A DNA stretch of 42,703 bases, from assembly GCA_018644725.1 (NCBI GenBank), contig JABGPZ010000038.1, positions 1-42,703 of the forward strand, read 5' to 3'. Origin of the DNA: Phycisphaerales bacterium (GTDB lineage Bacteria > Planctomycetota > Phycisphaerae > SM23-33). Shown here in pieces: positions 4,581 through 24,895 of this stretch (within the stretch, counting starts at the first letter, position 1; every line of letters starts with the position of its first letter). Position numbers and translations under genes: made by a program. Below the pieces are notes generated by a model. The model was given only the letters and a program-made list of their open reading frames with translations, was not told the origin of the DNA and did not search any database.

Positions 4581-4991
4581 GTGGAATTGGATACCGCCAT
4601 CGCCTCGAGCTTGTCCCAATCCAGAGTTGTCATTGAACAACTGATGGACGCTATTGGTGTGTCCGGGTTTGGTGAAGGGGAACTCTTCGGGATCAAATTG
4701 TCCCTCGAAGAGGCATTCGCAAACGCGATCAAGCATGGCAATCGGTTCGATCCAGAAAAGCAGGTCCACATTCAGGCCCGCATCACTCCAGGACATCTGG
4801 AGATCACGGTTCGCGACGAAGGGGACGGTTATTGTCCCGACTGTGTTGCCGATCCGACGGCTCCGTGTAATCTCGAACACCCCGGCGGCCGAGGATTGCT
4901 GTTGATTCGCGCCTACATGGATGAAGTGATTCACTCTGACGAGGGCCGAAGTGTTCGCATGATCAAAACCGCCGCAACTTCAACCCAATGA
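4581..4991 (+). CDS. Anti-sigma factor serine kinase (HATPase_c, RsbW/SpoIIAB-like)
   Basis: A 136-residue GHKL ATPase. The N box is EEAFANAIKHG (about residues 43-53), the G1 box DEGDGY and the G2 box GGRGLLLIRAYMDE. In this family the protein either sequesters a sigma factor or phosphorylates its STAS antagonist, here most likely the gene immediately upstream. The start is GTG at 4581 with GGAG ten bases upstream. Its stop overlaps the ATG of the next membrane-protein gene by four bases, suggesting translational coupling. The regulated target cannot be named from sequence. Confidence 0.9.
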   Translation: MELDTAIASSLSQSRVVIEQLMDAIGVSGFGEGELFGIKLSLEEAFANAIKHGNRFDPEKQVHIQARITPGHLEITVRDEGDGYCPDCVADPTAPCNLEHPGGRGLLLIRAYMDEVIHSDEGRSVRMIKTAATSTQ

Positions 4992-5998
4992 ATTATAAAA
5001 CCCACATCCATCTTGAATCGGTGAGTGTCTATGTCCTGATGGCGCTGTTGTCCTGGCTGAGCGTGGCCCTTGTGCGCACGCTGGAGCTGAGCGCGGGGTC
5101 GTGGGACGTCCTGATGGTGATGGTTCTCCTGGGATCGGGGGGCGTGGTTCTGCTTGCTGCGGTGGGAGGATTTTGCCGCACCAGTGCCGCCATTGCTGCG
5201 GCGATGACGATTATGGCTGGCCCCTGTATCGAAGCCGAGGCCATGTCGACGGTGCTTTGGCAGAATGAGGGACAAACCCAATCCCTCTATTTGGGAATGG
5301 GTCTACAGCTCCTCGCGGTTGGCTTTGCGGGTTTGCTTCTTCAAGATCTGCTTGTGCTGCTGCGGGAAAAATGGGTGACCAGCGAGTCCTATTGGGCCCG
5401 CCACGGTGTGAACTGTCCGGCGCTTTCGCCCGAGACACCCGCCACGCCTAGCTATGACAAAACGAAAACCCGGTTCCTCACGATCTATGCGAATGACCGG
5501 TGCGGCGAAAAAGATTCACTGGGACTTCTCCCCGCACGCGAAGGGCTGATTCGTCGATGGAGCGGGATGGATCCCCAGGACCGGACCGATACCATATTTG
5601 CGTTTGTGACCGGATTCATCCTCACAGGGATGCTGCTGTTTATCCTCGGGCAAGCGGCATCGCGCACACAGGTTCTCTTTGCGCTGATTGGTGCGTCGGC
5701 CGGGGCACCGATGATTCTGCTACGCTATTTCCCCAATGTTCGCGCGGCCGTGTGGAGTGTCATTCCGCTCATGCTGGGCGTTGGTGTGTATACGCTGGGG
5801 CTGATCACGGCGCCGTCGCTGACTCCGTATGGGATCACGCGTATTTCGCCGATCCTCCAGCTCTATCCCCTCGATTGGATCGTCGGCGGTATGGGCGGGG
5901 CGATGCTGGGGTGCTGGTACGCGGAGCGTAGCCGAGAGCATCACGCGTTTGACGCTCTGTGCGAAGCGGCCGATTCTGCCGAGGATTGTGAATGCTGA
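4988..5998 (+). CDS. Eight-helix integral membrane protein, unknown family
   Basis: A 336-residue protein with about eight hydrophobic segments: roughly residues 12-34, 39-62, 66-84, 99-125, 203-223, 227-246, 253-276 and 296-311. A soluble stretch of about 75 residues (about 128-202) separates helices 4 and 5. I do not recognise the family and see no transporter or enzyme motif. Its start overlaps the RsbW-like gene by four bases and its end overlaps the WaaP-like kinase by seven, so all four genes are very likely one transcript. It could be a membrane sensor or effector of the partner switch, or an envelope component used with the kinase; both are inference. Confidence 0.85.
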   Translation: MNYKTHIHLESVSVYVLMALLSWLSVALVRTLELSAGSWDVLMVMVLLGSGGVVLLAAVGGFCRTSAAIAAAMTIMAGPCIEAEAMSTVLWQNEGQTQSLYLGMGLQLLAVGFAGLLLQDLLVLLREKWVTSESYWARHGVNCPALSPETPATPSYDKTKTRFLTIYANDRCGEKDSLGLLPAREGLIRRWSGMDPQDRTDTIFAFVTGFILTGMLLFILGQAASRTQVLFALIGASAGAPMILLRYFPNVRAAVWSVIPLMLGVGVYTLGLITAPSLTPYGITRISPILQLYPLDWIVGGMGGAMLGCWYAERSREHHAFDALCEAADSAEDCEC

Positions 5999-6863: not shown

Positions 6864-7745
6864 TTATCGCCACTGGCCGAGTTCGCGGCAGATCGTTGTG
6901 ACCGGTTCGGCCTTGTTGAGGCAATAGAAGTGTAGCCCCGGTGCGCTGGAATCGAGAAGGTCCTGGCATTGGCGGATTGCAAAGTCCACGCCAGCGGTCG
7001 CCATTGCGTCGGCGTCCTCTTCGTGCGGGCGGAGCGTATTGACGATCGCGTCCGACGGTGCGACATCGCACTGGGTGCAGAAGCGCAGATAGCTCGTAAG
7101 ATTCGTTACGGGCAAAATCCCGGGAATCCGCCGCATGGTCACGCCGACGTTGTTGGTCCGCTGGATGAAATTACGGTAGTGGTCGTTCTCGAAGAACAAT
7201 TGCGTGATCGCAAAATCCGCGCCGGTTTCCTGTTTCATGCGGAGGACAAGACTGTCGATGGTCTCGTTTTCGCTACGGGGATGATTTTCCGGAAACGCCG
7301 CAACGCCCACGCAGAACGCATCACCATATTCACGAATCAGCCGAAGCAGTTCGAAGGCGTAGCGCGGTTCGTCTTTGCCCGGGACATAGTCCTGCTCGTT
7401 GGCGGGGGGGTCGCCCCGGAGCGCAAGGAGGTTGGTCACGCCGGCGGCCTGCATGTCTTCGAGCTCTTGGCGGAGTTCGACCCGGGAGTGTTTCGTACAG
7501 GTAAAGTGATGCATCACGGGGATTTCGTGACGCTCCTGAAGTTCTTTGACAATCGAAAGCGTATTTTCCGCTGTTGTTCCTCCGGCCCCATAGGTGACCG
7601 AGAAAAAATCGGGATTCAGGTCCATCAAGGATTCTGCAGCTGCAAAAAGACCTTCACGGCCCTTGTCGGTCTTGGGCGGGAAAAATTCAAAGGAGAGTGT
7701 CCGCAAGCGCTTGCGAAAGATTTCGTCAATTCGAGATACAGCCAT
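6864..7745 (-). CDS. metF: 5,10-methylenetetrahydrofolate reductase
   Basis: Reduces 5,10-methylene-THF to 5-methyl-THF, the methyl donor for methionine synthesis; an FAD-dependent TIM barrel. The 293-residue length is normal. Family segments are FEFFPPKT near the N-terminus, FFSVTYGAGGTT, LALRGDPP, AFPENHP, FAITQLFFEND and IPGILPV. The ATG at 7745 lies only 22 bases after the stop of the HU-like gene on the same strand, so the two are probably co-transcribed. It fits with metY, metX-metW and mtnP elsewhere in the window. An intrinsic terminator follows its stop. Confidence 0.97.
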   Translation of the reverse strand: MAVSRIDEIFRKRLRTLSFEFFPPKTDKGREGLFAAAESLMDLNPDFFSVTYGAGGTTAENTLSIVKELQERHEIPVMHHFTCTKHSRVELRQELEDMQAAGVTNLLALRGDPPANEQDYVPGKDEPRYAFELLRLIREYGDAFCVGVAAFPENHPRSENETIDSLVLRMKQETGADFAITQLFFENDHYRNFIQRTNNVGVTMRRIPGILPVTNLTSYLRFCTQCDVAPSDAIVNTLRPHEEDADAMATAGVDFAIRQCQDLLDSSAPGLHFYCLNKAEPVTTICRELGQWR

Positions 7746-7767
7746 TCGAGTCTCTATCTTTCCAGCG

Positions 7768-8073
7768 CTAGGCCAGCTCGCTCAATTTGAGCTTCATGAT
7801 TCGGCCAGGTTTGAATTTGACCGTGTGCTTTGCGGGGACTTCCACGCGTTCGAGGGTGCGAGGGTTCTGTGCAATTCGGGCAGCCCGGCGACGGGTTTCA
7901 AATACGCCAAAGTCCCGGAACTCCAGACGATGCCCCTTGCCAAGCTCTTCCACGATCGAATCGAGAAACAGTTGTACAACATCCTTGACAAGGACGCGTT
8001 TGGCCTTGGTGGTGGTTGCAATGCGATCAACCAGCTCTTTTTTGGTTACGGTGATGGGTTTGGGTTGGTCCAT
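7768..8073 (-). CDS. HU/IHF-family DNA-binding protein
   Basis: A 101-residue nucleoid-associated protein. The bacterial histone-like pattern is clear: KKELVDRIATTTKAKRVLVKDVVQ helices (shown in part), then LEFRDFGVFETRRRAARIAQNP with the conserved GxF and the Arg-rich beta-arm including the Asn-Pro that intercalates DNA. The ATG at 8073 is chosen over the longer upstream reading because AAGGGG lies about seven bases before it and the residues upstream are not HU-like. A TATAAT box precedes it at 8119-8124. Upstream partner of metF, probably in one transcript. HU versus IHF-like cannot be decided from sequence alone. Confidence 0.93.
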   Translation of the reverse strand: MDQPKPITVTKKELVDRIATTTKAKRVLVKDVVQLFLDSIVEELGKGHRLEFRDFGVFETRRRAARIAQNPRTLERVEVPAKHTVKFKPGRIMKLKLSELA

Positions 8074-8118
8074 AGTTTGTCCCCTTGCTGTGAAAGGTTT
8101 GAATTTCCTAACTAGTGT

Positions 8119-8124
8119 ATTATA
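8119..8124 (-). promoter_or_regulatory. -10 element for the HU-like/metF transcript
   Basis: Perfect TATAAT on the minus strand, about 46 bases before the HU-like ATG. I see no good -35 hexamer at the right distance. Confidence 0.45.
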
Positions 8125-8161
8125 TCCTATCCAATCACAATTTATAGTAATTTTGGAAGAA

Positions 8162-8199
8162 AATGAAAAAAAAATGCCGAGACGATTTCTCGTCCCGGC
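8162..8199 (-). terminator. Intrinsic terminator of the nucleotidyltransferase gene
   Basis: An imperfect hairpin (core GACGA/TCGTC, flanked by GCCG/CGGC with small bulges, 8176-8199) is followed on the minus strand by a long T-run (A-rich 8164-8174). It separates the nucleotidyltransferase gene from the HU-like gene. Confidence 0.7.
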
Positions 8200-8224
8200 C
8201 TGTTTTGTAGTCCTACAAGCTGTT

Positions 8225-9142
8225 TTAGCCCCAAAGGCTTTCGGGATAAACACCTGCGTCAATCAGGGCGCGGATGGCGGCAACCACGGTCGGTTTGTCC
8301 TCCTGATAGGTCACGCCAAGCCATTTTTCGTCGGTCGGCAGAACGCGGACGGTGGCGGCGTTGGCCTGAAGCTGGCGATTGACCTCGGTGGGGATATAGT
8401 ATTCGCCCTTGGGGGTGTCAATCGCGCCGGGGAGCCACTCGTGGAATCCTTCTTCCAGTGCAGACAGATACGACGTCGTAAGGCCCCACATATTCATCGA
8501 GACGAGGGACTCTTCCCCCACGGGCTTCCAGCTCGTGCCATCGTCCTCGCTGAACTGTACGCCCTCGGGGCGGCGCTGGATCATCGTCCGTTCGACGACG
8601 GTGTCAAGGCAACCATCGGCGGTGACGTTGCAGATCCCCCGGGCCACGTGCCCGTGGTCAGACAGAGTGTTGGCGAGCACGAAGGCCACCATCGACCAGT
8701 CGGCGACGCCATCGCGGTCTTCGGCGGTGCGGAGATGGTTGGCAATGGTCTCGAAGCTGCTGCGGCCATAGAAGTCGTCCCCGTTAATCAGCGCAAACGG
8801 ACCGTCAATCACGTCCTTGGCGCAGAGCACGGCGTGGCCTGTGCCCCAGGGCTTTTGACGCGTCGGGGGACACGTGAACCCGGCGGGGAGCTTATCGAGT
8901 TCTTGAAACGCGTACTCGACTTCGATGCGCGATTCAATCGTCTTGCCGACTTTTTCGCGGAAGGCCTCTTCGATGTCCTTGCGGATGATGAAGACGACCT
9001 TCTCGAAGCCCGCGCCAATCGCGTCGCTCACAGCGTAGTCCAGAACGATCTCCCCATTGGGGCCAATCGGATCAATTTGCTTCAGGCCGCCATAGCGGCT
9101 TCCCATTCCAGCGGCCATCACGACCAGTTGTGGTTTGTTCAT
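8225..9142 (-). CDS. Nucleotidyltransferase (sugar-1-phosphate NTP transferase fold)
   Basis: A 305-residue Rossmann-like nucleotidyltransferase that should transfer an NMP to a phosphorylated substrate. The N-terminal signature is VVMAAGMGSRYGGLKQ, the glycine-rich nucleotide-binding loop with its Arg and Lys. The metal-binding GDDFYG follows near residue 120. It resembles a widespread group annotated only as NTP transferase and related to GalU/RmlA; the sugar specificity is not readable. The ATG at 9142 has AGGAA six bases upstream. It has its own promoter and terminator, so it appears monocistronic. Confidence 0.85.
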   Translation of the reverse strand: MNKPQLVVMAAGMGSRYGGLKQIDPIGPNGEIVLDYAVSDAIGAGFEKVVFIIRKDIEEAFREKVGKTIESRIEVEYAFQELDKLPAGFTCPPTRQKPWGTGHAVLCAKDVIDGPFALINGDDFYGRSSFETIANHLRTAEDRDGVADWSMVAFVLANTLSDHGHVARGICNVTADGCLDTVVERTMIQRRPEGVQFSEDDGTSWKPVGEESLVSMNMWGLTTSYLSALEEGFHEWLPGAIDTPKGEYYIPTEVNRQLQANAATVRVLPTDEKWLGVTYQEDKPTVVAAIRALIDAGVYPESLWG

Positions 9143-9444
9143 CGGTATTCCTGCAGTTGGGCAAGGCAGAGGCCTTGCGGGGCATTTTGATCATTCGGCG
9201 ACAGAATGCAGCCTTTCCGCCGAAAATCAATTGAATTTCGATCAGGTGGGGTATCCTAACGATTCGGTGAAAAATTTCAAGGGGATTTTCCAATCGATTC
9301 ACTGGGAATGCGTTACTCTACATGTCTGGACAAAGAGGGTATTTCGAAGAATTCCAGATTTGGTAGATAAAAGTCCATTTGGATGGACAGGTGCCGCTGG
9401 ATTGAGTACACTCTTTGCTTCCCTTTTTTGGATTAGGAGAAACG
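9143..9444. other. Gene-free divergent intergenic region
   Basis: 302 bases between the minus-strand nucleotidyltransferase and the plus-strand toroid gene. It holds the minus-strand promoter listed separately and a small perfect hairpin, GTCCAT (9373-9378) with ATGGAC (9383-9388). AGGAG at 9435-9439 is the ribosome site for the plus-strand gene. No convincing ORF or clear plus-strand promoter is visible. Confidence 0.6.
9253..9280 (-). promoter_or_regulatory. Promoter of the nucleotidyltransferase gene
   Basis: On the minus strand: TTGAAA (9275-9280), a 16-base spacer and TAGGAT (9253-9258), about 110 bases upstream of the ATG. The TAGGAT box matches the one proposed for the STAS operon. 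Confidence 0.5.
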
Positions 9445-11931
9445 ATGCGACAACTTAAGATGTCAGTACTGGCGTTGGCTCTTCCGCTTTTGATGGTCAG
9501 TTCGCTTTCCCAAGCGGCTGTGGACAATGAGCGCGTCCAAGCCGCGATCCAAAAGGGTGTGGCGTACCTGAAGGCTCAACAGCAGAAGGATGGGAAATGG
9601 CTCAGTGGTTCCCACTTTCTTAAAAAACATCCGCTCGGTTCGACGGCTGTGGCAACGTATGCGTTGCTGAGTTGTGGTGAAAGTGCAAATTCCGAACACA
9701 TCAAAAAAGCCTTCGCGCAATTGATCGATGAGCGAGGCTATCCGAAAACCAAGCGCGTTTACACGCTCGGTCTCTTGGCGAGTGCATTGCATTTGGCAGC
9801 CATCGAAAATAAGTCCTATGAAAAACCGCTTCGCAATCTCTCCAGTGCATTGATCCGGTATCACGCTAAGGGAGCCTATGGGTATGAAATTCCCTGGAAA
9901 CCGAATGACAAGCACAACCCATTGCACGTCTCGACCTCCCAATATGGCATTCTCGGGGTATGGGCGGGGATGAGCGCCAATCCGGTCTCCAGTTCCTACT
10001 GGCTGGCGGCGAATCGATGGTGGAAGGCCAATCAGGTGTCTGACGGGGGTTGGCCCTATCGAAAAGGAGGCAAAAGTACGGCCTCGATGACGGTCGCGGG
10101 GATTGCTTCGAGCTTTCTCTGTTTCGACAATCTCTATCGCAACCAATTCGTCACCTGCACAGGCGGCAAGCTCCCCGTTCACATTCAAAAAGGGATGGAT
10201 TGGATGGCCAAGCATGCCAAGGGATCCATCGGGAATCCAGGCTCCCACTGGAACTACTATTATTCTCTCTACGGGTTTGAGCGCGTTGGCCTCGCGGCCG
10301 GGTATAAGTATTTCGGCACCTGTGACTGGTATGCCGACGGCGTCGATCGCCTGCTTCCAATGCAGTGGGCCAATGGCGGCTGGCCTGACATTGGGGGAAA
10401 GAAAGCACCCAAATGTGAATCGATTGTCAATACGTCGTTCGCGCTGATTTTCCTGTTGCGTGGACAACAACCCGTGCTGATGAACAAGTTGGAATTCCAA
10501 GGCGACTGGAACAATCGCCCGCGCGATTTGGCGAACGTGACCGCCTGGATGAACCAAATTTTCGAACAAAAAGGGCGATGGCAGATCACCAACCTCCTCG
10601 TACCGGTGGAGGAGCTGCACGATTCGCGCATCCTGTATATGTCTGGCTGCAAGAAGCTTGAGCTCTCCGACGCCGACATTGCCAAGCTGCGCACCTATGT
10701 CCTCCAGGGCGGCACGATCCTGAGTTGCGCCGAGTGCAACGGGGTGGTCTATAAACAGTCGTTCCGCGCAGCCTGCGAGAAACTCTTCCCCGAGTGGAAA
10801 CTCAAACTTGTCGATACCGACTCGCCGATTTACACCTCCCTGTTCCAACTCAACAAGGACAAGACCGCGCCGGAATTGTATATGGTTCACAACGGTGTTC
10901 GTCCGTTGGTGATTTATTCCGACGAAGATTTTGCGCGCTCGTGGCAAACTTTGATCCCGCACACCAAGCCCGAAAAGATCACCCGCGGGGGGATGGTGAA
11001 AATTCTTCCCAATATCATGCGGCACATCGTCGGCAGGATGGAAGATCTCGAATCTGCCGGATCGTTCCGTTGGCCTGCCGCCACAAAACTGGCCCCGACC
11101 ATCCATGTTGCTCATGTCAAATACGCGGGGAACTGGAACCCCGAACCCCTCGCCTATGAACGATTCAGTTTGCTCATGGCCGAGCGCGAGAAGGTTTTGC
11201 CGCAGATTGAGGAGTGCCCGGCTGCGTCCCTTGCTTCGAGCAAGGCCAAGGTCGCGATCATGGCCATCACCGAGGCCGTGTCGCTTTCCAGTGAAGAACA
11301 AAAAGGCCTCAAAGCGTTCCTCGCCAAAGGCGGACTCCTCTTTGTGGATACCGCCGGCGGAGACGCCAAGGTCGCCGAGGCGGGCAAGGTGTTCATCCGC
11401 GATCTCACAGGCGAAGCGCCCGCTTACCTCTCCTCCAGGCACGCCCTTTACCAGATCAAGGGTAAAAAAATCACCGAGGTGTATGACCGCAAGTCTTCCA
11501 AGGCCTTCGCGCCGGGAAGAATGATGTGCGTTTTGAAGGACAAGAAACTCTCGGTTCTTTTCAGCCGCCAAGACATCACGGGTGGGTTGCTGGGAATGTC
11601 CTCGGGGACGATTAGGGGCTATGATCCGGAGAGTGCCTACGATCTGATGCGCAACATCATCCTGCACGGCCATGGACCCATGACCACGACCCAGGTCAAG
11701 ATCGAAATGGTTGTCGCTGAACCCGTTAAAAAGGAAGCGTCCCCCAAGCAGGAAGCTCCCCTCAAAGATGCCGCCGCGAAGATGGCCGCATTGAAGGCCC
11801 GTCTTGAGGCCGCCGAGAAAGCGGCCGAGGCTGCCAAGAAAGCGATGAAAGCGATGGAAGAGATGAAGCGGGCAGAGGAAGAGCTCAAAAAGCTCGAAGC
11901 CGCAGAAGCCGCCGCAAAAGCCGCTGCCTGA
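9445..11931 (+). CDS. Secreted alpha/alpha-toroid protein with two DUF4159-like domains (paralog A)
   Basis: An 828-residue protein, probably exported: residues 1-25 are a Sec signal peptide ending near SQAA. Residues about 30-345 are a terpenoid-cyclase/prenyltransferase-type toroid with QW-like repeats (QQQKDGKW, SDGGWPY, ANGGWPD); I see no DxDD cyclase acid motif, so it is probably not a cyclase. Residues about 350-530 and 535-745 look like two DUF4159-like domains, each with a GG(T/L)xL...-type core (LQGGTILS; AKGGLLFVD). Residues about 750-828 are an Ala/Glu/Lys-rich coiled-coil tail. ATG 9445 has AGGAG six bases upstream. The next gene is a tandem paralog, identical in DNA over the second DUF4159-like domain. 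Function unknown. Confidence 0.85.
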   Translation: MRQLKMSVLALALPLLMVSSLSQAAVDNERVQAAIQKGVAYLKAQQQKDGKWLSGSHFLKKHPLGSTAVATYALLSCGESANSEHIKKAFAQLIDERGYPKTKRVYTLGLLASALHLAAIENKSYEKPLRNLSSALIRYHAKGAYGYEIPWKPNDKHNPLHVSTSQYGILGVWAGMSANPVSSSYWLAANRWWKANQVSDGGWPYRKGGKSTASMTVAGIASSFLCFDNLYRNQFVTCTGGKLPVHIQKGMDWMAKHAKGSIGNPGSHWNYYYSLYGFERVGLAAGYKYFGTCDWYADGVDRLLPMQWANGGWPDIGGKKAPKCESIVNTSFALIFLLRGQQPVLMNKLEFQGDWNNRPRDLANVTAWMNQIFEQKGRWQITNLLVPVEELHDSRILYMSGCKKLELSDADIAKLRTYVLQGGTILSCAECNGVVYKQSFRAACEKLFPEWKLKLVDTDSPIYTSLFQLNKDKTAPELYMVHNGVRPLVIYSDEDFARSWQTLIPHTKPEKITRGGMVKILPNIMRHIVGRMEDLESAGSFRWPAATKLAPTIHVAHVKYAGNWNPEPLAYERFSLLMAEREKVLPQIEECPAASLASSKAKVAIMAITEAVSLSSEEQKGLKAFLAKGGLLFVDTAGGDAKVAEAGKVFIRDLTGEAPAYLSSRHALYQIKGKKITEVYDRKSSKAFAPGRMMCVLKDKKLSVLFSRQDITGGLLGMSSGTIRGYDPESAYDLMRNIILHGHGPMTTTQVKIEMVVAEPVKKEASPKQEAPLKDAAAKMAALKARLEAAEKAAEAAKKAMKAMEEMKRAEEELKKLEAAEAAAKAAA
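11018..11677 (+). repeat. 660-bp perfect direct repeat, copy A
   Basis: By direct reading I find no difference between this block and 13752-14411 (offset 2,734 bases). It encodes residues about 525-744 of paralog A, the second DUF4159-like domain. Identity begins and ends abruptly; flanking sequence is only partly similar. Confidence 0.95.
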
Positions 11932-11954
11932 TTCGTCAAACGCTGTTCACCCGC

Positions 11955-11983
11955 AGGCCACGAGACATCGTCGCCTGTTCTTT
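11955..11983 (+). terminator. Terminator after paralog A
   Basis: AGGC-C-ACGA (11955-11963) pairs with TCGT-C-GCCT (11968-11976) around a GACA loop, with a central C-C mismatch, followed by GTTCTTT. The homologous hairpin after paralog B is perfect. Confidence 0.6.
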
Positions 11984-12050
11984 AGTCAATCATTCCACAC
12001 ACGCAGCGATTCGTCGCCGCTTTTTCTCCCGCAAAATTCGAGGCGATATC

Positions 12051-12107
12051 TGTACAATAGAACTAGGATGTACTAAAATCGAAGATTCAGTGTACTATAC
12101 AATGTAC
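12051..12107. promoter_or_regulatory. Cluster of four TGTAC motifs upstream of paralog B
   Basis: TGTAC begins at 12051, 12069, 12091 and 12103. The third lies inside the inverted repeat TGTACTATACA (12091-12101) and a TACAAT -10-like box sits at 12098-12103. No -35 box is placed well. It is a candidate operator/promoter for the downstream gene; no equivalent cluster precedes paralog A. Confidence 0.35.
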
Positions 12108-12133
12108 GGCCACCCTCTTGGATGGAGATTCCT

Positions 12134-14494
12134 ATGCGACTCAACCGAGCAATTCTGATCCTTCTGGCGACGACCATGGTGACCGGCACGGTCGCGATGA
12201 CGGCAGCCGACAAGAAGGTGGCTGATAAGAAGGTGGTCGTCAAAAAGGTGGTCGACAATAAAGAAGTGGCCGAGTCAATCAAGAAGGGGGTTGCTTGGGT
12301 GAAGTCTCAGCAGAAACCCGACGGCAGCTTTTGGCCGACGAAACAGTATCCCCTTGGCTATACTGCGTTGGCGACGTATGCTTTGCTGAGTTGTGGTGAA
12401 AGTGCCCAAGACCCCGCCGTCAAAAAAGCGCTGGAGCTCCTGATCAAGAAGAAGACCAACCGCGTGTATACTCTGGGGCTGTTGTGCAGTGCGCTGCACC
12501 TGGCCGCCATCGAAAACCCCGCCTATCTCAAGGACCTCAAACAGATTTCCCAGGCGTTGGTCGTCCATGTTCATAATGGCGGCTCACGACGCCACCGCGG
12601 GTCGTATGGCTATGCCATTCCCTCGGACGCGAAAGATGGCCCACATGGTGCCAGAAACCCACAGCATTGTTCCACCGCGCAATATGGTGTCCTTGGCGTT
12701 TGGGCAGGGCTTAGCGCCCGCATCACCGTCAAGAAGGTCTATTGGCAAATGGTCGAAGAATATTGGAAATCGACCCAGTGTTCCGATGGCGGCTGGCCGT
12801 ACAATCCGAACATTAAAAAGATCTCGAATCTCTCCCGCTCGTCAATGACGGTGGCGGGGCTCGCGAGCTTGTTCCTCTGCATGGACCATCTCCGTGCGAA
12901 CGAATTTACCGGCGTGAAAGGCGGAAAGCTCTCCAAGGAGATTGAAAGGGGTATGGCGTGGTTGGCCAAGAATGCCGAGCGCGCGATCAACATACCCAAT
13001 AAGAGCCGCGACGGCAATTATCATTATATGTTGTACGGTATGGAGCGCGTTGGCCTCGCCTCGGGGTATAAATATTTTGGAGAGTGCGACTGGTATTCCG
13101 ACGGGGCGAGTTACCTTCTGCGCACCCAGGCAGCAAATGGGAGCTGGTACAATAATTCCGAGGCGACCTGTTTTTCTTTAGTGTTCCTCATGCGCGGTCA
13201 CTATCCGGTGCTGATGAATAAGCTGCAGTTTGACGGGGATTGGAATAACCGCCCGCGCGATTTGGCGAACCTTTCTGCGTGGCTGGGGCGCTACTTCGAA
13301 AACCCCCTTCGTTGGCAGGTCATCAATCTCAAGGGGTCCGTGGCCGAGTTGCACGATTCGCGCTTTCTCTACCTCTCCGCATACCGAAAAATGGAGTTTA
13401 CCGATGCGGAAATCAAGAAACTCCGCACCTATGTCCTCCAGGGCGGGACAATTCTCAGCAGCACCGAGAGGAAGAGCCCCGTCTACAAAAAAAATATCCG
13501 CGCATTGAGTGTGAAATTGTTCCCCGAATGGGAGAGGCAGGATGTCCCCAAAGATCACGCCATCTATCAATCGCTGTTTCCGCTTCATAAGGATCGGCGC
13601 GCGCCGAAATTGTATATGGTTCATAATGGAGTGCGTCCGCTGCTGATCCACACCGACGAGGATCTCTCACTCGCCTGGCAGACTCTCCAGCCGCACACCG
13701 AGCCCGAAAAGATCCGCGATGTGGCCATGGTGACCCTCGTACCCAACTTGCTGCGGCACATCGTCGGCAGGATGGAAGATCTCGAATCTGCCGGATCGTT
13801 CCGTTGGCCTGCCGCCACAAAACTGGCCCCGACCATCCATGTTGCTCATGTCAAATACGCGGGGAACTGGAACCCCGAACCCCTCGCCTATGAACGATTC
13901 AGTTTGCTCATGGCCGAGCGCGAGAAGGTTTTGCCGCAGATTGAGGAGTGCCCGGCTGCGTCCCTTGCTTCGAGCAAGGCCAAGGTCGCGATCATGGCCA
14001 TCACCGAGGCCGTGTCGCTTTCCAGTGAAGAACAAAAAGGCCTCAAAGCGTTCCTCGCCAAAGGCGGACTCCTCTTTGTGGATACCGCCGGCGGAGACGC
14101 CAAGGTCGCCGAGGCGGGCAAGGTGTTCATCCGCGATCTCACAGGCGAAGCGCCCGCTTACCTCTCCTCCAGGCACGCCCTTTACCAGATCAAGGGTAAA
14201 AAAATCACCGAGGTGTATGACCGCAAGTCTTCCAAGGCCTTCGCGCCGGGAAGAATGATGTGCGTTTTGAAGGACAAGAAACTCTCGGTTCTTTTCAGCC
14301 GCCAAGACATCACGGGTGGGTTGCTGGGAATGTCCTCGGGGACGATTAGGGGCTATGATCCGGAGAGTGCCTACGATCTGATGCGCAACATCATCCTGCA
14401 CGGCCATGGACGCACGACCAAGGTCAAGGTCAAGACCGAAACGCCTGTCGCTGAACCCGATAAAAAGGAAGCCGCCGCAAAAGCCGCTGCCTGA
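12134..14494 (+). CDS. Secreted alpha/alpha-toroid protein with two DUF4159-like domains (paralog B)
   Basis: A 786-residue tandem paralog of the preceding gene. Residues 1-27 are a signal peptide (hydrophobic AILILLATTMVTGTVAM, then Ala). A Lys/Val-rich stretch with repeated DKKV units (about residues 28-45) precedes the toroid domain (about 50-355), whose QW-like units include QQKPDGSFW and SDGGWPY. Two DUF4159-like domains follow; the second (residues 540-759) is encoded by DNA identical to paralog A. The tail is short (ends KKEAAAKAAA) and lacks the 57-codon coiled coil of A. ATG 12134 is preferred (GGAG upstream) over 12122. A strong terminator follows. Confidence 0.85.
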   Translation: MRLNRAILILLATTMVTGTVAMTAADKKVADKKVVVKKVVDNKEVAESIKKGVAWVKSQQKPDGSFWPTKQYPLGYTALATYALLSCGESAQDPAVKKALELLIKKKTNRVYTLGLLCSALHLAAIENPAYLKDLKQISQALVVHVHNGGSRRHRGSYGYAIPSDAKDGPHGARNPQHCSTAQYGVLGVWAGLSARITVKKVYWQMVEEYWKSTQCSDGGWPYNPNIKKISNLSRSSMTVAGLASLFLCMDHLRANEFTGVKGGKLSKEIERGMAWLAKNAERAINIPNKSRDGNYHYMLYGMERVGLASGYKYFGECDWYSDGASYLLRTQAANGSWYNNSEATCFSLVFLMRGHYPVLMNKLQFDGDWNNRPRDLANLSAWLGRYFENPLRWQVINLKGSVAELHDSRFLYLSAYRKMEFTDAEIKKLRTYVLQGGTILSSTERKSPVYKKNIRALSVKLFPEWERQDVPKDHAIYQSLFPLHKDRRAPKLYMVHNGVRPLLIHTDEDLSLAWQTLQPHTEPEKIRDVAMVTLVPNLLRHIVGRMEDLESAGSFRWPAATKLAPTIHVAHVKYAGNWNPEPLAYERFSLLMAEREKVLPQIEECPAASLASSKAKVAIMAITEAVSLSSEEQKGLKAFLAKGGLLFVDTAGGDAKVAEAGKVFIRDLTGEAPAYLSSRHALYQIKGKKITEVYDRKSSKAFAPGRMMCVLKDKKLSVLFSRQDITGGLLGMSSGTIRGYDPESAYDLMRNIILHGHGRTTKVKVKTETPVAEPDKKEAAAKAAA
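13752..14411 (+). repeat. 660-bp perfect direct repeat, copy B
   Basis: Partner of 11018-11677, identical at every base I compared. The first bases outside the block differ on both sides (A/C on the left, C/G on the right). Confidence 0.95.
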
Positions 14495-14518
14495 TTCGTC
14501 AAACGCTGTTCCCCCACT

Positions 14519-14546
14519 GGCCACGAGACATCGTGGCCTTTTCTTT
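14519..14546 (+). terminator. Terminator after paralog B
   Basis: GGCCACGA (14519-14526) pairs perfectly with TCGTGGCC (14531-14538) around GACA, then TTTTCTTT. Its 3' end overlaps the stop codon of the convergent pilT-like gene. Confidence 0.9.
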
Positions 14547-15660
14547 AGCCAATCAGGCCGCCGGTCGAGGTAGTAATTCCCTTCATCAGCATTTTGAGCT
14601 CATCGGCATTGGGGCTGACGGCGTAGGCGGTCTTGGGGTCGATCATATCCGTCTCGATGAGCTTCATCAGGGACGAGTTGAACGAGAGCATTCCGTCGAG
14701 TTCCGAAGACCGGATCACCGTCGGCAGGTCCGCCTCGCGGCCTTGGGCGATCAGGTCGCACACGACCGAATTGTTCCGCATGATTTCCACCGAAGGGACA
14801 CGGGAAACGCCTTCTTTGCAGCTCGGCAGGAGCTTTTGGCAGACAATCGCCTGGAGGGTGAACGCGAGGGTCTGGAGGATTTGGTTGCGTCGCTCGATGG
14901 GGAATAGCTCGGTGATGCGGCTGATGGTTTGCGGGGCCGTCGAGGCGTGAATTGTCCCGAAGACAAGGTGGCCGGTTTCGGCCGCCTGGAGCGCGGCTTC
15001 GAAGGTTTCCGGGTCGCGCATTTCGCCCAGGAGCACCACGTCGGGGTCTTCGCGCAACATCGCGCGCAGGGCGCTGGGGAAGTCGGGCGTGTCGATGCCG
15101 ATTTCGCGCTGATTGACAAACGCCTTCTGGTCGGAGTAGACATATTCAATCGGATCCTCGAGGGTGAGGATGTGGCAGCGGCGGGTGGCGTTGATGTGGT
15201 TGAGCATCGACGCGATGGTTGTCGATTTCCCGCTGCCGGTGGGGCCTGCGAGAAGCACGAGCCCTTGGTGCTGGACGAGAATTTCTCCGAGCGATTCGGG
15301 CAGATGCAGAGTATTAAAATCGGGAATGTCGCAGCTCACGCGCCGCGCCGCGAGGCCCGGTTCACCGCGCTGGCGAAACAGATTGATACGGAAGCGGTCA
15401 CCGTCGGGGACCTGATAGGCGATGTCCAAATTGCCGGTATGGTGGAACGCGTCGGCCTGTTCCTCATCGAGCAGGCTCAGCGCCATCGCGAGAATCGTTT
15501 CGTTGTCGAGCGGCGGTTCGTCGAGCAGGCGCAATTGCGAGTCGATTCGCACCGCAGCGGGGCGATCGGTCTTGATGTGCAGGTCCGAGGCTTTGAGGCG
15601 TGAGACGGCGGTGAAATAGGCTTCGATTTTTTTACGGGCATCGTCGGGGGTCATGCTCAT
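14545..15660 (-). CDS. pilT: PilT/PilU-like twitching motility ATPase
   Basis: A 371-residue secretion-superfamily ATPase that in characterised relatives powers retraction of type IV pili at the inner membrane. Motifs in order: N-terminal ASDLHI, Walker A GPTGSGKS (residues 139-146), Asp box LTLEDPIEY, Walker B DPDVVLLGEMRD and His box TGHLVFGTIH. The C-terminal AIRNLIRE motif of classical PilT is replaced by a diverged VVCDLIAQGRE, so PilU or another pilus ATPase is possible. ATG 15660 has AGGAG five bases upstream. No other pilus gene is in the window. It lies 20 bases downstream of hisF on the same strand, perhaps in one transcript. Confidence 0.9.
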   Translation of the reverse strand: MSMTPDDARKKIEAYFTAVSRLKASDLHIKTDRPAAVRIDSQLRLLDEPPLDNETILAMALSLLDEEQADAFHHTGNLDIAYQVPDGDRFRINLFRQRGEPGLAARRVSCDIPDFNTLHLPESLGEILVQHQGLVLLAGPTGSGKSTTIASMLNHINATRRCHILTLEDPIEYVYSDQKAFVNQREIGIDTPDFPSALRAMLREDPDVVLLGEMRDPETFEAALQAAETGHLVFGTIHASTAPQTISRITELFPIERRNQILQTLAFTLQAIVCQKLLPSCKEGVSRVPSVEIMRNNSVVCDLIAQGREADLPTVIRSSELDGMLSFNSSLMKLIETDMIDPKTAYAVSPNADELKMLMKGITTSTGGLIG

Positions 15661-19282: not shown

Positions 19283-20935
19283 CTAGGCCTTGGCAGTGTC
19301 GTCGTCGGGCATGATTTCGGGTCGCAGATAGTTGGGTTTGTACTGTTCTGCACGCAAGTTCCGTTTGCGGATTTCTTCTTGTTCGAGTTCCGTGAAAGTT
19401 CCCTGCGGCGAGATGTGGACCTGGATTGGCCCGAGGCGATCTGTTTTTCGCTTCGAGTTGTATTCCATGTTGATCAGGCGCAGGTGGTGATCGAAGCAGC
19501 GCGAGAGCGTCGTCGCGGCGATGGGCGAATCGACGTGCAATTCGTAATAGGGCGTGTCGGCGAAATGCCCCTGGAGATAGAATTGGTCGACGTGGAGTTG
19601 CAGGTCGCGGCTGGTGCATTCCATGGCGGTGACGACCTGGTGTTCCGTGAGTTTCTCGCCGGTGATGTTGGCGGTGTGTTTGCCGCGGGAGAGAAATTCG
19701 AACACGGGGGACTGCCCGTAAAAGTCGACCACGCGAATCCGGTCATCGATGTCATAGCGCATCAGAGAGGTGAAATTGCTGAACACGAGGAAATATTCGT
19801 GGCCGACTTCCAGCTCGTGGGCGAGGAGCGTTTCGGGGTTGTCCTTTTCCCGCTGTTCGACGGGGATGAATTCGAGGACGTTGGACAAGATTTCGGCCAC
19901 GCCAGCAGAGGTGTTGTCGCGAATGGGCAGGTTGAAGCGTCCCTCGCTGGCGAGCAGGCCAATGTCGCGAATCGGTGCGCCGCCGGTGAGTTTGCGGAGC
20001 TTGGGAAGATACAGCCCGAGCGTGCCGCCCGTCCAGTTGGCCACAAACGAGAGATCCCACAAACAGCGTGCGGTGAACGTCCCGCTTTCGTCGATGCGGT
20101 CGCGGATCATGTCTGCCCGGCGGGGATTGGCGCGGAAAGCACGCACTTGGTGGGCGAGTGTTTTCGGCAGGTCGCCCGGCGGTGTAAACGTTCCGTTTTC
20201 GAGATCGCTCAGGAGCGGTTCGATCTGGTCGCGGGCGGCCTCGATGAGCTGGATGGTCGTCGAGGGATTGGCTGTGGTGATAAACGCAACATTGCGTTCG
20301 ATGGCGTAGCGGAGAATCGTGTAGAAGCGCGTCTGGATCTCGGGGATTTCAGAGACCCATTGCGGCGTGGGATACATCCGGCGCACGAGGCGCTGTTGGT
20401 TTTGGGCGAGCAGGCCGCTGATGGCACCACAGGGAATTCCCGCAGGCGATGTTTCTTCGTGCATCGTTGAGGTCAGGCTGAGGATCGAGCGGCCAAACGC
20501 GCTCATGTGGTCGCGGATCACACCGATCCCGAACGCGTTCCAGCCCATCTTCATTTGATCGGCGAACGGCTGGGTCACGGGAATGTATTTCGGTGTGCCC
20601 GTGGTTCCCGATGTCATCGAGAACATCAACGGCGGCACTCCATTGGGCATCAACGCTTTAAAATCACCCTCGCGCACTCGGTCGATGTAGGGCCGGTAGT
20701 AGTCGTACGTGGACAGCGGGACGGCCTTGCGAAAATCGTCCATCGTCTTGACCGACAGGAGATTGTGGTCCTTGCCGAACCCGGTTCCAGCGTGCGCCTC
20801 GACGAGTCGTTCGAGGAGTTGCTGCTGAACGTCGCGGGTGTTCTGGTGGGCACGGAGAAATTTACGCCGACAGGTGTTGGCGCGATAGCCCGCAATCAGA
20901 GACACTGGTTTGAGGAAAAATTCACGCAGTCCCAT
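19283..20935 (-). CDS. GH3-family acyl-adenylate / amidotransferase-like enzyme
   Basis: A 550-residue member of the ANL adenylate-forming superfamily resembling plant GH3 auxin-responsive proteins, which conjugate amino acids to carboxylic acids. The nucleotide loop MTSGTTGTPKYIPVT lies near residues 107-121, followed by family-like segments (SEGRFNLP, RYDIDDRIRVVD, GEKLTE). ATG 20935 is preferred: GAGG sits six bases upstream and the start overlaps the hydrolase stop by 14 bases. A longer in-frame start at 21022 would extend into the hydrolase with a non-GH3 Pro/Arg/Thr-rich leader. Between an alpha/beta hydrolase and an APH-fold kinase, it suggests a small acyl-conjugate pathway; the substrates are unknown. 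Confidence 0.87.
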   Translation of the reverse strand: MGLREFFLKPVSLIAGYRANTCRRKFLRAHQNTRDVQQQLLERLVEAHAGTGFGKDHNLLSVKTMDDFRKAVPLSTYDYYRPYIDRVREGDFKALMPNGVPPLMFSMTSGTTGTPKYIPVTQPFADQMKMGWNAFGIGVIRDHMSAFGRSILSLTSTMHEETSPAGIPCGAISGLLAQNQQRLVRRMYPTPQWVSEIPEIQTRFYTILRYAIERNVAFITTANPSTTIQLIEAARDQIEPLLSDLENGTFTPPGDLPKTLAHQVRAFRANPRRADMIRDRIDESGTFTARCLWDLSFVANWTGGTLGLYLPKLRKLTGGAPIRDIGLLASEGRFNLPIRDNTSAGVAEILSNVLEFIPVEQREKDNPETLLAHELEVGHEYFLVFSNFTSLMRYDIDDRIRVVDFYGQSPVFEFLSRGKHTANITGEKLTEHQVVTAMECTSRDLQLHVDQFYLQGHFADTPYYELHVDSPIAATTLSRCFDHHLRLINMEYNSKRKTDRLGPIQVHISPQGTFTELEQEEIRKRNLRAEQYKPNYLRPEIMPDDDTAKA

Positions 20936-21998
20936 GAGCAACCTCGCAGGCAGACGTATTGGGGTCGTCCTCTGGTGAAATGTCGGTCGGGGCGATGTCG
21001 AGACCGGCAAGATGCTTGTCAAAAAACGCGACGGTGCGCAGTGCGTAGCGTTCGGGTTGGGTGGCGACGGCCTGGTTGTGTTTGGCCTTGGGGACGATCC
21101 AGAGATATTTCGGCGATGGGGCCATCTCGTGCAGCGATTCGGTCTGGTCGACGCGGATGTAGCTGTCGCGTTTTCCGTGGATGAAATAGACCGGGCGGGG
21201 CTGCATTTCGCGCAGAGCCTTGGCCACCGACGGGAAGCGTCGTTTGAGGCGCCGCTGGGCGAAGTGGATCAACAGGCGATAGAGAAACCGCCAGTACGGT
21301 TCGGGGTGTTCCTTATAAAGGATCCCGATTTTCGCGAAGAGTTGCCCCCAGCGCTTCATCAGGGAAATCAGCGTGCTTTGGGTATCGAACGCGCCATCAC
21401 AAACGATCGCCTTGATGTCCGAGTCGCTGCTGGCGGCGAGCAGTGCCACGCCCGCGCCGCGGCTGATGCCGAAGACACCCACGCTGGGGTCTTTTCCCTC
21501 GTCGCTGAGGCGGGACCGCATATAGGCACACGCGCCGAGCAGGTCGCCAACCTCTTTGTCACTGGGCCATTGCAACGGGCTGTAGTCTTTGCCGGACGAC
21601 TCGCCGTGAGCGCGATAGTCGAAGGTGAAAATCTGATAGCCCGCATCGAGCAGGGGCTTGGCATAGCGCGCACAGCTCGCGCCATCGGCGTGGAATTCGT
21701 GGCTGAAGAGAATGGTCCCTTTATAGGGTTCCTGCTGACTGCCGAGAAGCGTGCCCTGGAGGCTCGTGCCGTCCCAGCTGCGGAAGCGGATGGTCTCTCC
21801 TTCGATCTCGTCGAAGTCCATGACCTTGCGCGAGAGCGGCGGGTGGGTGTCGCAGAAAATGTTGAGAATGATCCTGACGTAGTAGGCGAGAAAATAGCAT
21901 GTGACACCAACGAGAATCAGGACCGTTGCTGAAATTGCAACCAATGCCCAGTTCCGTGATACCCAATCGCACAGGGTTGCCAGGATGAAAGATTCCAT
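20922..21998 (-). CDS. Membrane-anchored alpha/beta hydrolase
   Basis: A 358-residue protein with an N-terminal transmembrane helix (about residues 18-42) and an alpha/beta hydrolase domain. The nucleophile elbow is GISRG (S179); the other triad members are probably D278 (HGKRDSY) and H307 (KAKHNQ). The HEFHADG segment (about residues 100-106) may form the oxyanion hole. It resembles the BAAT/dienelactone-type hydrolases commonly annotated only by fold. ATG 21998 has GGAG six bases upstream. First gene of the tight hydrolase-GH3-kinase cluster. Confidence 0.85.
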   Translation of the reverse strand: MESFILATLCDWVSRNWALVAISATVLILVGVTCYFLAYYVRIILNIFCDTHPPLSRKVMDFDEIEGETIRFRSWDGTSLQGTLLGSQQEPYKGTILFSHEFHADGASCARYAKPLLDAGYQIFTFDYRAHGESSGKDYSPLQWPSDKEVGDLLGACAYMRSRLSDEGKDPSVGVFGISRGAGVALLAASSDSDIKAIVCDGAFDTQSTLISLMKRWGQLFAKIGILYKEHPEPYWRFLYRLLIHFAQRRLKRRFPSVAKALREMQPRPVYFIHGKRDSYIRVDQTESLHEMAPSPKYLWIVPKAKHNQAVATQPERYALRTVAFFDKHLAGLDIAPTDISPEDDPNTSACEVAHGTA

Positions 21999-22017
21999 TC
22001 GTTCTCCAGAAGAGCGT

Positions 22018-22053
22018 AAAAACAGCCAGAAATCATTTTACAATTCCTGGCTG
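22018..22053 (-). terminator. Terminator of the lepA-yqeY transcript
   Basis: On the minus strand CAGCCAG (22047-22053) pairs with CTGGCTG (22023-22029) around a 17-base loop, followed by TTTTT (22018-22022). The loop is long for an intrinsic terminator but the stem and U-tract fit. Confidence 0.6.
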
Positions 22054-22122
22054 CGATAGGCAAGTAGAGAGTCAGTATTCCTTTATTTTGGTTTTGCGTC
22101 CTTGGTGGGCAAAACCGCTGAA

Positions 22123-22569
22123 CTAGCCGTTGCGGATTTGCGCGACAGCGGCGGCGACGTCTTTGCCGTTGACCGGCGCGCCGGAGGGCTTGAGTGCGCC
22201 CATGGCCATGCCGGTGGCCGGGCCGTCGGCGTTGGCGCCCTGGATGCGATCGATCACACCGGGCTGTTCGCCGAGGAACGTGATGATTTCTTCGACGCTC
22301 CACTGCTTGGGGAGCAGGGCATCGAGGATTTCGTTTTCGCGAGTGAGCTGCTCGTTGCGAGGAGAATCGGGGCAGGCCGCGATGGTCTCGACATTGGCTG
22401 CGAACAGTTTGCGAAGAATGGTCTCGGCCGTCTCTTCCGAGCAGGTCCCTTTGCGGGTTTCTTCCATCTGGATATCGCCGAGGGCGACGCGCAGGACGTT
22501 TTTCTTCACGTCGTCGCGAGCCTTCATGGCGGTCTTGATTTCGGCTTTGAGAGTTTCGATCAGGGACAT
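22123..22569 (-). CDS. yqeY: GatB/YqeY-domain protein
   Basis: A 148-residue YqeY-family protein, related to the tail domain of the GatB amidotransferase subunit that binds tRNA; the role of free-standing YqeY is not settled. Evidence is the MSLIETLKAEIKTAMKARD opening (shown in part), KKNVLRVALGDIQ, and the lysine/glycine-rich end (PATGMAMGALKPSGAPVNGK). ATG 22569 has AAGGAG five bases upstream. It follows lepA and a duplicated lepA tail and is probably in the same transcript. Confidence 0.9.
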   Translation of the reverse strand: MSLIETLKAEIKTAMKARDDVKKNVLRVALGDIQMEETRKGTCSEETAETILRKLFAANVETIAACPDSPRNEQLTRENEILDALLPKQWSVEEIITFLGEQPGVIDRIQGANADGPATGMAMGALKPSGAPVNGKDVAAAVAQIRNG

Positions 22570-22592
22570 GACGTCTCCTTCTATGTAGTTGC

Positions 22593-22624
22593 GGTTATTC
22601 TTCGCCGGATTCCAACACGGCCAT
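22593..22624 (-). repeat. Duplicate of the lepA 3' end
   Basis: A 32-base segment matching 22673-22704 at 31 positions, 80 bases away. It repeats the codons for the last nine LepA residues, MAVLESGEE, and the stop. Confidence 0.9.
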
Positions 22625-22669
22625 TTTTTTGAGATGGCGTGCGACTTCGAAAAAATCCGTGGCGATCAT
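22595..22669 (-). CDS. Possible 24-residue peptide carrying the LepA C-terminal tail
   Basis: An ATG at 22669, five bases after the lepA stop, opens a 24-codon frame with sequence MIATDFFEVARHLKK followed by MAVLESGEE. The last nine residues are exactly the LepA tail. No clear ribosome site precedes it, though coupling from lepA is possible. It may be translated or be only a remnant of a local duplication. Confidence 0.3.
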   Translation of the reverse strand: MIATDFFEVARHLKKMAVLESGEE

Positions 22670-22672
22670 CAA

Positions 22673-22704
22673 GGTTATTCTTCGCCGGATTCCAAGACGG
22701 CCAT
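22673..22704 (-). repeat. lepA 3' end, original of the 32-base repeat
   Basis: Encodes LepA's final MAVLESGEE and the stop. The copy at 22593-22624 differs at one base. Confidence 0.9.
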
Positions 22705-24474
22705 AAATGCCTTCTGCGGAATTTCGACGTTGCCGACCATTTTCATGCGCTTCTTGCCGGCCTTCTGCTTTTCGAGCAGTTTGCGTTTCCGGCTGATGTC
22801 GCCACCGTAGCATTTGGCCGTGACGTTTTTGCGCAGTGCGCGGATGGTTTCGCGCGCGATCACCTTCGTGCCGATGGCGGCCTGGAGGGGGATTTCGAAT
22901 TGGTGACGCGTGATTTCTTTTCGCAGCTTCTGGATCAGCGCCCGCCCACGGATCTGGGCCTTGGAACGGTGAACGATCACGCTCAGCGCGTCGACTGCGG
23001 TGTTGTTCACGAGGATGTCCATCTTGACCAAGTCTTCTTTGAAGTAGCCGATCAACTCGAAGTCCATCGTGCCATAGCCGCGTGTGCCGCTCTTGAGCTT
23101 GTCGTAGAAGTCGTAGATGATTTCGGCGAGCGGAATCTTGTAGGTCAAAATCACGCGGTCGGTCGAAAGGTATTCGGTCTTCTGATAGGTCGCGCGGCGG
23201 TCTTCGCAGAGCTGCATCACATTGCCCACCGAGTCGGCCGGGATGATCAGGTCGCATTTGACAATCGGCTCGCGGATTTCCTCTAGGAAGTTGGCGTCGG
23301 GCAATTCGCCAGCAGCGTCAACCTCTTGAACCGTGCCGTCGTTGAGCAGGACTTCGTAGGGAACGGTCGGCGCGGTCTGAACGACCTCGATATTGAATTC
23401 ACGTTCGAGGCGCTCTTGGACGATCTCCATGTGGAGCATGCCGAGGAACCCGCAGCGGAACCCAAACCCAAGCGCGTCGGAGGTGATCGGAATGTAGGTC
23501 AGCGATGAGTCGTTGAGTTTGAGCTTGTCCAGCGCGTCGCGCATGTCGGGGAACTGCGTCGAGGGGCCTGGGTAGAAGTCGGAATAGACCATCTGCTTGG
23601 GCGGCTCATAGCCGGGCAGGGCATCGGTCGCCGGGTCGCCCGCGAGCGTCACCGTATCGCCGACGTGAATGGTATCAATCGTGCGAATGTGTGCGACGAA
23701 GTAGCCCACCTCGCCGCTGTGGAGTTTGTTGATCTTCGTCTGCTTGGGCATGAACTTACCCATGTCGGCGATGACGTATTCGTCGCGTGTGCCGAGCATC
23801 TTGACTTTGTCGCCAACTTTGAGCGTGCCATCGAACACGCGAAGGTAGACCACCACGCCGCGGTAGTCGTCATATTGGCTATCGAAGATCAGCGCGCGGA
23901 GTTTGCCGTTGGGATCGCCAGCAGGGGGCGGGAGCTTCTCGACGATCGCTTCGAGCATGTTCTCGATGCCTTCGCCAGTTTTGGCCGAGGTGAATACGCA
24001 ATCCTCTGCCGGGATGCAGACGAGATTTTCCACTTCCATCGCCACATCTTCGGGACGGGCAGCGGGCAGGTCGATCTTGTTAATGACGGCCGCGAGGGCC
24101 AGCTCACAATTTTCCGCGAGGTGCGCGTTCGCAACGGTCTGCGCTTCGACTCCCTGCGCGGCGTCAACGACCAGCAGACCGCCTTCACATGCAGCGAGTG
24201 AACGCGAAACCTCATAATGGAAGTCGACGTGCCCGGGGGTGTCGATCACGTTGAGCATGTATTTCTCGCCCTTGTGCTCATATTCCATCGTGACGGCGGA
24301 GGCTTTGATCGTAATGCCGCGCTCGCGTTCGAGGTCCATCGAATCCAGAATCTGGTCCTTGAATTCGCGCTCGGTGATCGAGCCTGCCAGCAACATCATC
24401 CGGTCGGCGAGAGTGCTCTTGCCGTGGTCGATGTGGGCGATAATACTGAAATTGCGGATGTGGCTTTGGTCCAT
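22675..24474 (-). CDS. lepA: Elongation factor 4 (LepA)
   Basis: A ribosome-bound translational GTPase that can back-translocate stalled ribosomes. The 599-residue length is standard. G1 is AHIDHGKS, G2 RERGITI, G3 DTPGH and G4 NKID; the LepA-specific C-terminal region includes GYGTMDFE and CYGGDISRKRKLL. The ATG at 24474 gives the conserved MDQSHIRNFSIIAHIDHG, although no strong ribosome site precedes it. It is divergent from the glutamine synthetase gene across an AT-rich region and is followed by a duplicate of its own 3' end and then yqeY. Confidence 0.97.
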   Translation of the reverse strand: MDQSHIRNFSIIAHIDHGKSTLADRMMLLAGSITEREFKDQILDSMDLERERGITIKASAVTMEYEHKGEKYMLNVIDTPGHVDFHYEVSRSLAACEGGLLVVDAAQGVEAQTVANAHLAENCELALAAVINKIDLPAARPEDVAMEVENLVCIPAEDCVFTSAKTGEGIENMLEAIVEKLPPPAGDPNGKLRALIFDSQYDDYRGVVVYLRVFDGTLKVGDKVKMLGTRDEYVIADMGKFMPKQTKINKLHSGEVGYFVAHIRTIDTIHVGDTVTLAGDPATDALPGYEPPKQMVYSDFYPGPSTQFPDMRDALDKLKLNDSSLTYIPITSDALGFGFRCGFLGMLHMEIVQERLEREFNIEVVQTAPTVPYEVLLNDGTVQEVDAAGELPDANFLEEIREPIVKCDLIIPADSVGNVMQLCEDRRATYQKTEYLSTDRVILTYKIPLAEIIYDFYDKLKSGTRGYGTMDFELIGYFKEDLVKMDILVNNTAVDALSVIVHRSKAQIRGRALIQKLRKEITRHQFEIPLQAAIGTKVIARETIRALRKNVTAKCYGGDISRKRKLLEKQKAGKKRMKMVGNVEIPQKAFMAVLESGEE

Positions 24475-24541
24475 GGAGTTTTGCCGTCGGAATAGAGGTA
24501 GAGTAGGGTAGAAGGGTGGCCGGATCGTGAGATTCGAGCAA

Positions 24542-24569
24542 ATTGTACAGATTATCTACTAATATACAA
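24542..24569 (-). promoter_or_regulatory. Candidate lepA promoter
   Basis: On the minus strand: TTGTAT (24564-24569), a 16-base spacer and TACAAT (24542-24547), about 70 bases before the lepA ATG. Confidence 0.4.
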
Positions 24570-24670
24570 GCAGAATTCCAGTTTCCACTATCTCTTTTGT
24601 ACAATGGGCGCTACAATCTAAACAATCGACAGGAGATTTGCGACAAAATCGACGGAAACAGGAAAAGCGC

Positions 24671-24713
24671 TACAAAAATGTATAAACTGGATGTCATGTA
24701 TTACAAAAGTGTA
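24671..24713. promoter_or_regulatory. Paired TACA-N4-TGTA palindromes
   Basis: TACAAAAATGTA (24671-24682) and TACAAAAGTGTA (24702-24713), 31 bases apart (about three helical turns). They lie about 115-155 bases upstream of the start site predicted from the sigma-54-type promoter, where enhancer sites for sigma-54 activators usually sit. Confidence 0.45.
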
Positions 24714-24800
24714 GTAAAATTCCCTTCCGACAAATCTGTAAAAAATCTGGAATTCCCCATCGCCTTTATTTGCAATGTCTTAAACGATTCCTCTTCTTTT

Positions 24801-24816
24801 TGGCACGGAAAATGCT
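24801..24816 (+). promoter_or_regulatory. Sigma-54 (-24/-12) promoter of the glutamine synthetase gene
   Basis: TGGCACG (24801-24807) and TGCT (24813-24816). The invariant GG (24802-24803) and GC (24814-24815) are separated by exactly ten bases, and only the first T of the -12 TTGC differs from consensus. A TATAAT at 24816-24821 overlaps but lacks a spaced -35 box. The predicted start is near 24826, about 70 bases before the ATG. Confidence 0.65.
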
Positions 24817-24895
24817 ATAATTCCAGTGCTATGCCTCTATCTGGGCAGCAATGGACACTATACACATGTCACACCGAAACCAGGAGACACCTTCC

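Follow-up and report, generated by a model that had tools for sequence, protein, structure and literature searches.

Probable recent gene conversion of one C-terminal domain between tandem toroid-DUF4159 genes in an uncultured Phycisphaerae bacterium

The stretch of DNA analysed here (the window; 42,703 bp) belongs to the metagenome-assembled genome (MAG) of an uncultured Phycisphaerae bacterium, which comprises 2.54 Mb in 112 contigs. Two tandem paralogs lie on its forward strand. Gene 1 (9445-11931; ORF 9415-11931, with the likely ATG at 9445, after AGGAGA, chosen by reading the sequence) encodes a signal peptide, an alpha/alpha toroid, two DUF4159-like domains (D1 and D2) and a charged K/A/E-rich tail, and gene 2 (12134-14494; ORF 12122-14494, likely ATG 12134) is its tandem paralog with a short tail. 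The two share 68% amino acid identity over aligned codons, and both belong to the toroid-DUF4159 family according to their matches to the DUF4159 profile PF13709 (4.5e-32 and 1.1e-34 for genes 1 and 2; 111.6 and 120.1 bits against a cut-off of 25.9). Squalene-cyclase toroid profiles are matched weakly by both genes (SQHop_cyclase_N at 1.6e-6 in gene 1). Convergent with gene 2 is a pilT-family ATPase gene on the reverse strand (14545-15660; TIGR01420, 4.4e-118). The host genome contains a third family copy (L034 1-5055, equivalent to 20871-25925 of G000 contig C43), which is likewise convergent to and directly adjoining a pilT-family ATPase gene (TIGR01420, 7.5e-123), an arrangement that may reflect an old segmental duplication or a functional link; a pilT-like gene occurs near a family gene at only one further surveyed locus (L107/L186, the same place). 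Upstream of gene 1, three ORFs (4988-5998, 6969-7790 and 7787-9190) have no Pfam or NCBIfam match and adjoin radical SAM, STAS and Kdo-kinase-like genes.

An AlphaFold2 model built with 58 relatives (mean pLDDT 89) resolves a toroid at residues ~45-360, D1 at 362-547 and D2 at 572-761, followed by a disordered tail. Foldseek matches the model to the toroids of squalene-hopene cyclases (8paj, 8pak) and to the DUF4159 protein Hoch_4089 (4i66). Identity as a squalene-hopene cyclase was rejected on the basis of hopene_cyclase scores of 16-18 bits against a cut-off of 431, the toroid fold alone being held in common. None of the papers searched mentions DUF4159.

The two genes share a 660-bp block, 11018-11677 in gene 1 and 13752-14411 in gene 2, in which all 660 positions are identical and the exact match ends at both of these edges. 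In gene 2 the block corresponds to residues 544-763, that is, the inter-domain linker and the whole of D2 in the model, confirming the proposal of a first-pass annotation that it spans the second DUF4159-like domain without any difference, silent sites included (0 of 154.7 synonymous sites changed; 95% upper limit ~2% by the rule of three). Diverged homologous sequence flanks the block on both sides, and the offset between copies is constant at 2734 from 10448 to 11738, placing the block in register. The left flank, comprising D1 (10448-11017, homologous to 13182-13751), has mismatches at 196 of 570 positions, a rate at which an exact run of 660 bp would have a log10 P of about -121. We found no third copy of the block in the genome and, within the window, no other long repeats beyond the block pair and its flanks. 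A diversity-generating retroelement was also considered and rejected, as the repeat copies are identical over 660 bp and no reverse transcriptase is present among the window ORFs scanned.

The same annotation had described both edges as sharp, which applies to the left edge, where the adjoining 100 bp contain 34 mismatches, but not to the right edge, which is stepped. A segment of intermediate divergence (11678-11738, pairing with 14412-14472; 11/61 mismatches) is followed by a K/A/E-rich tail segment which in the alignment is restricted to gene 1 (~11739-11904) and then by 88 bp that are 93% identical (11905-11992 against 14468-14555; 82/88). Judging from the alignment, the tail segment would be either an insertion in gene 1 or a deletion in gene 2. 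It forms part of a long K/A/E-rich extension missing from gene 2, which is probably helical or disordered, and the few differences preceding this tail are mostly non-synonymous (13 versus 2). The 88-bp stretch in gene 1 holds the last codons, the stop, a terminator-like hairpin with a stem mismatch and an interrupted T tract, and an 11-bp relic of the pilT 3' end. Its gene 2 counterpart holds the stop, an intact terminator (hairpin at 14519-14538, z = -3.5, plus TTTTCTTT) and the last 11 bp of pilT itself. These features place a putative duplication junction at 11992/11993 and suggest that the gene adjoining pilT is the original tandem unit. An older homogenisation appears to have spanned the 3' tail and terminator, reaching 11 bp into the neighbouring pilT. 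Differences number 0/660 in the block and 17/149 on its right side (Fisher p = 1.5e-13), which excludes a single event, and more than one is needed because the right side carries this older conversion layer.

Divergence along the pair, calculated by gene segment, gives NG86 (Nei-Gojobori) dS values of ~2.3 for the toroid, 1.9 for D1, 0 for the block and 0.13 for the tail. The toroid and D1 have thus diverged to synonymous saturation between the two genes, in line with the earlier description of diverged N-terminal halves, to which we add the correction that D1, too, is clearly homologous between the copies (61% amino acid and 66% nucleotide identity). GC3, compared with respect to donor and recipient, is 0.717 in the block, 0.735 in D1 of gene 1 and 0.714 in D1 of gene 2, values that give no pointer to the direction of transfer.

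A survey of Phycisphaerae, in which class the family is strongly expanded, yielded 228 distinct ORFs of the family and 32 distinct tandem pairs with both genes on one strand; the comparison set includes no second genome of the host's genus. Among side observations, arrays of four tandem toroid-DUF4159 genes occur at two loci (L137, G070 C93; L180, G076 C69), and one genome (G005) has about 17 or more dispersed family copies. In 20 unconverted pairs the toroid and D2 are equally diverged (0.58 and 0.59 at the nucleotide level, p = 0.84) and D1 is more conserved than either (0.67). D2 is therefore not inherently slow, and the block is explained neither by constraint nor by D2 having started out more similar; its identity reflects an event. 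It could be argued that D2 has been held identical by strong purifying selection, acting on the DNA or on the protein, with no recent recombination, given that D2 is a complete folded domain with conserved residues. The synonymous identity already refutes this: such selection would have to leave 0 of 155 synonymous sites changed beside regions with a dS near 2 and would need a conserved overlapping function, of which relatives show none. Since in 20 other tandem pairs D2 has diverged as far as the toroid, with D1 the better conserved of the domains, we regard this explanation as having almost no chance of being correct. Relatives with copies equally diverged across D2, named in the first-pass annotation as evidence against conversion, do exist among these other pairs; they are not orthologous to the window pair and do not refute conversion in it. 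Orthologous tandem pairs were sought in near relatives of G091, and none with the tract was found in G106. One orthologous tandem pair present in two species of a single genus (L224 and L238; 93-95% identical between species) shows no conversion between its copies and provides a useful negative control.

Domain trees of 209-217 sequences recover genes 1 and 2 as sisters in both the toroid and D1 (support 1.0), with a distance of 0 in D2. Their sister position in the 215-sequence toroid tree makes them true lineage duplicates rather than recipients of an imported N-terminus. This bears on a scenario in which the whole gene was recently duplicated in tandem and the N-terminal part of one copy was then replaced from a diverged homologue elsewhere, which would likewise yield an identical 3' part and a diverged 5' part and is compatible with the junction visible near 11992. 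Not only are the toroid and D1 of each copy the closest relatives of the other, but no other copy in the genome resembles either (next best 28% identity), and a single duplication cannot produce 0/660 beside 17/149 differences; we consider this scenario very improbable. Elsewhere in the trees, the two L036 genes group as sisters in D2 (0.97) although a clade of 39 leaves lies between their toroids, which adds an independent case of conversion. The L040 pair form sisters in D1 only (0.77), and the L137 pair show the reverse pattern, being sisters in the toroid only (0.82).

Tracts were identified in three further pairs among the 32, two in D2 and one in D1. The longest exact run is 660 bp in the window pair, followed by 311 bp in L042, 92 bp in L246, 51 bp in L211 and 7-42 bp in the other 28 pairs. 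The L042 pair (G046, from another family of the class) has a near-identical tract of ~430 bp with 2-3 codon differences between flanks of 76-85% identity, the tract of L211, at residues ~661-760, is decayed, and the L246 tract is located in D1 at ~385-450. Conversion is recurrent in toroid-DUF4159 genes throughout Phycisphaerae and affects mostly the C-terminal domains. The left edge of the L042 tract is at residue ~547, as compared to 544 in the window, so that two independent tracts have left breakpoints within about three residues of one another at the D1/D2 boundary.

Three further MAGs have paired contig ends inside family paralogs with exactly 127 bp (twice each in G146 and G156) or 141 bp (G061) in common, and upstream of the overlaps the paralogs differ by ~20%, with indels. 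Both 127 and 141 are usual assembler k-mer sizes. Exact overlaps of this kind are the expected short-read outcome where identical paralog stretches exceed k and collapse. From the outer contigs, the inner contigs being unseen, the common stretch in G146 appears to extend from about residue 354 to 745, covering both C-terminal domains with the toroids distinct, and that in G156 would start within the toroid. The overlapping-end test was negative for G111, G059, G041, G116 and others, so some contig breaks in the family have causes other than repeat collapse. Seven tracts or collapsed stretches are known in all, and the toroid is the centre of none; with uniform placement the probability of this is roughly 0.02, an approximate value that takes no account of the stronger conservation of D1 or of the small sample.

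Such collapse raises the prospect that the D2 copies in the window differ by SNPs or strain variants and were merged into one consensus used twice, particularly as the genome is a MAG in 112 contigs and repeat collapse between paralogs is demonstrable in this family. Against this, each copy runs into its own diverged flanks with the reading frame intact, and a loop repeat has one consistent path, hence two copies are expected. Collapse also requires near-identical segments, here alongside ~35% mismatch, so conversion would still be required and an artefact could hide at most a few differences. Independent MAGs moreover retain small in-tract differences (L042, L211). An assembly artefact, which the first-pass annotation had ranked as the main alternative, is thereby weakened and in our judgement improbable, and its suggestion of an engineered-looking partial duplication finds no support.

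Interlocus gene conversion between old tandem duplicates, with a recent tract, is the best explanation of these data and one that we hold with high confidence. The recent single-domain conversion originally envisaged is borne out by the register, the diverged flanks, the absence of synonymous change and the coincidence of the block with linker and D2 in a confident model, with an older layer now added on the right side. An ancestral toroid-DUF4159 gene convergent to pilT would have been duplicated in tandem, with the end of the unit probably 11 bp inside pilT; the copies then diverged to synonymous saturation in the toroid and D1. An earlier conversion may have homogenised the 3' end up to the homology limit at 11992/14555, as we infer from the tail dS of 0.13 and the 93% identity of the 3' non-coding stretch. 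Later, double-strand-break repair by presumed RecA-type recombination would have copied ~660 bp without crossover, with the result that both genes are intact and D2 is identical. Tracts of 660 bp are of ordinary length, since the mean walk fitted to tuf conversion in Salmonella is ~500 nt in each direction (PMC5485169). A counter-point is that the left flank, at ~65% identity, is a poor substrate for homologous recombination unless D2 was still similar, and the later event was probably primed by similarity left in D2 by the earlier conversion. Selection for a common D2 is possible. A more speculative reading, which we put forward tentatively and think somewhat unlikely, is that selection favours repeated conversion within domain bounds, which would hold the C-terminal DUF4159 domains of this expanded family alike inside each genome and let the toroids diversify to confer specificity. 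The C-terminal domains would then perhaps serve, with similar doubt, as a common docking or catalytic module. Should the domain bias be selective, D2 would represent a common functional module of otherwise uncharacterised secreted proteins.

The window pair provides a clean, dated case in which conversion between bacterial tandem paralogs is confined to one domain, and the family supplies further, independent cases. A warning comes with it: MAGs assembled from short reads are broken or collapsed at tracts of this kind, so that for the C-terminal half of the proteins in this expanded planctomycete family neither paralog numbers nor domain trees are reliable. The papers searched contained nothing on conversion between planctomycete paralogs. 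Domain-limited conversion of tandem prokaryotic paralogs is already known, with a close precedent in mtrA-1/mtrA-2 of methanogens, in which one domain was converted between tandem paralogs (PMC4632066), and a related one in NRPS genes; new here are the gene family, the recurrence within it and the near-coincident breakpoints at the D1/D2 boundary. Like mtrA-1/mtrA-2, the window pair are old tandem paralogs in which repeated gene conversion has homogenised one domain and another differs, with recurrence in separate lineages. Conversion in mtrA was, however, inferred over very long times in an operon of known function, whereas the window pair combines one very recent exact tract with an older layer in an uncharacterised family, and the divergence of its unconverted part came from substitutions and not from the gain of a domain (PMC4632066). 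The tufA/tufB genes of Salmonella resemble the pair in copying between two chromosomal paralogs, non-reciprocal in tuf and presumably so in the window, with tracts of several hundred bp, but are ~99% identical throughout and far apart, as opposed to tandem and ~65% identical outside the tract (PMC5485169). Intragenomic exchange in NRPS adenylation domains likewise affects no more than one domain or subdomain of a multidomain paralog. What is swapped in that case is the part that sets specificity, whereas in the window pair it is the C-terminal domain that becomes uniform, with the toroids staying distinct (PMC9205934).
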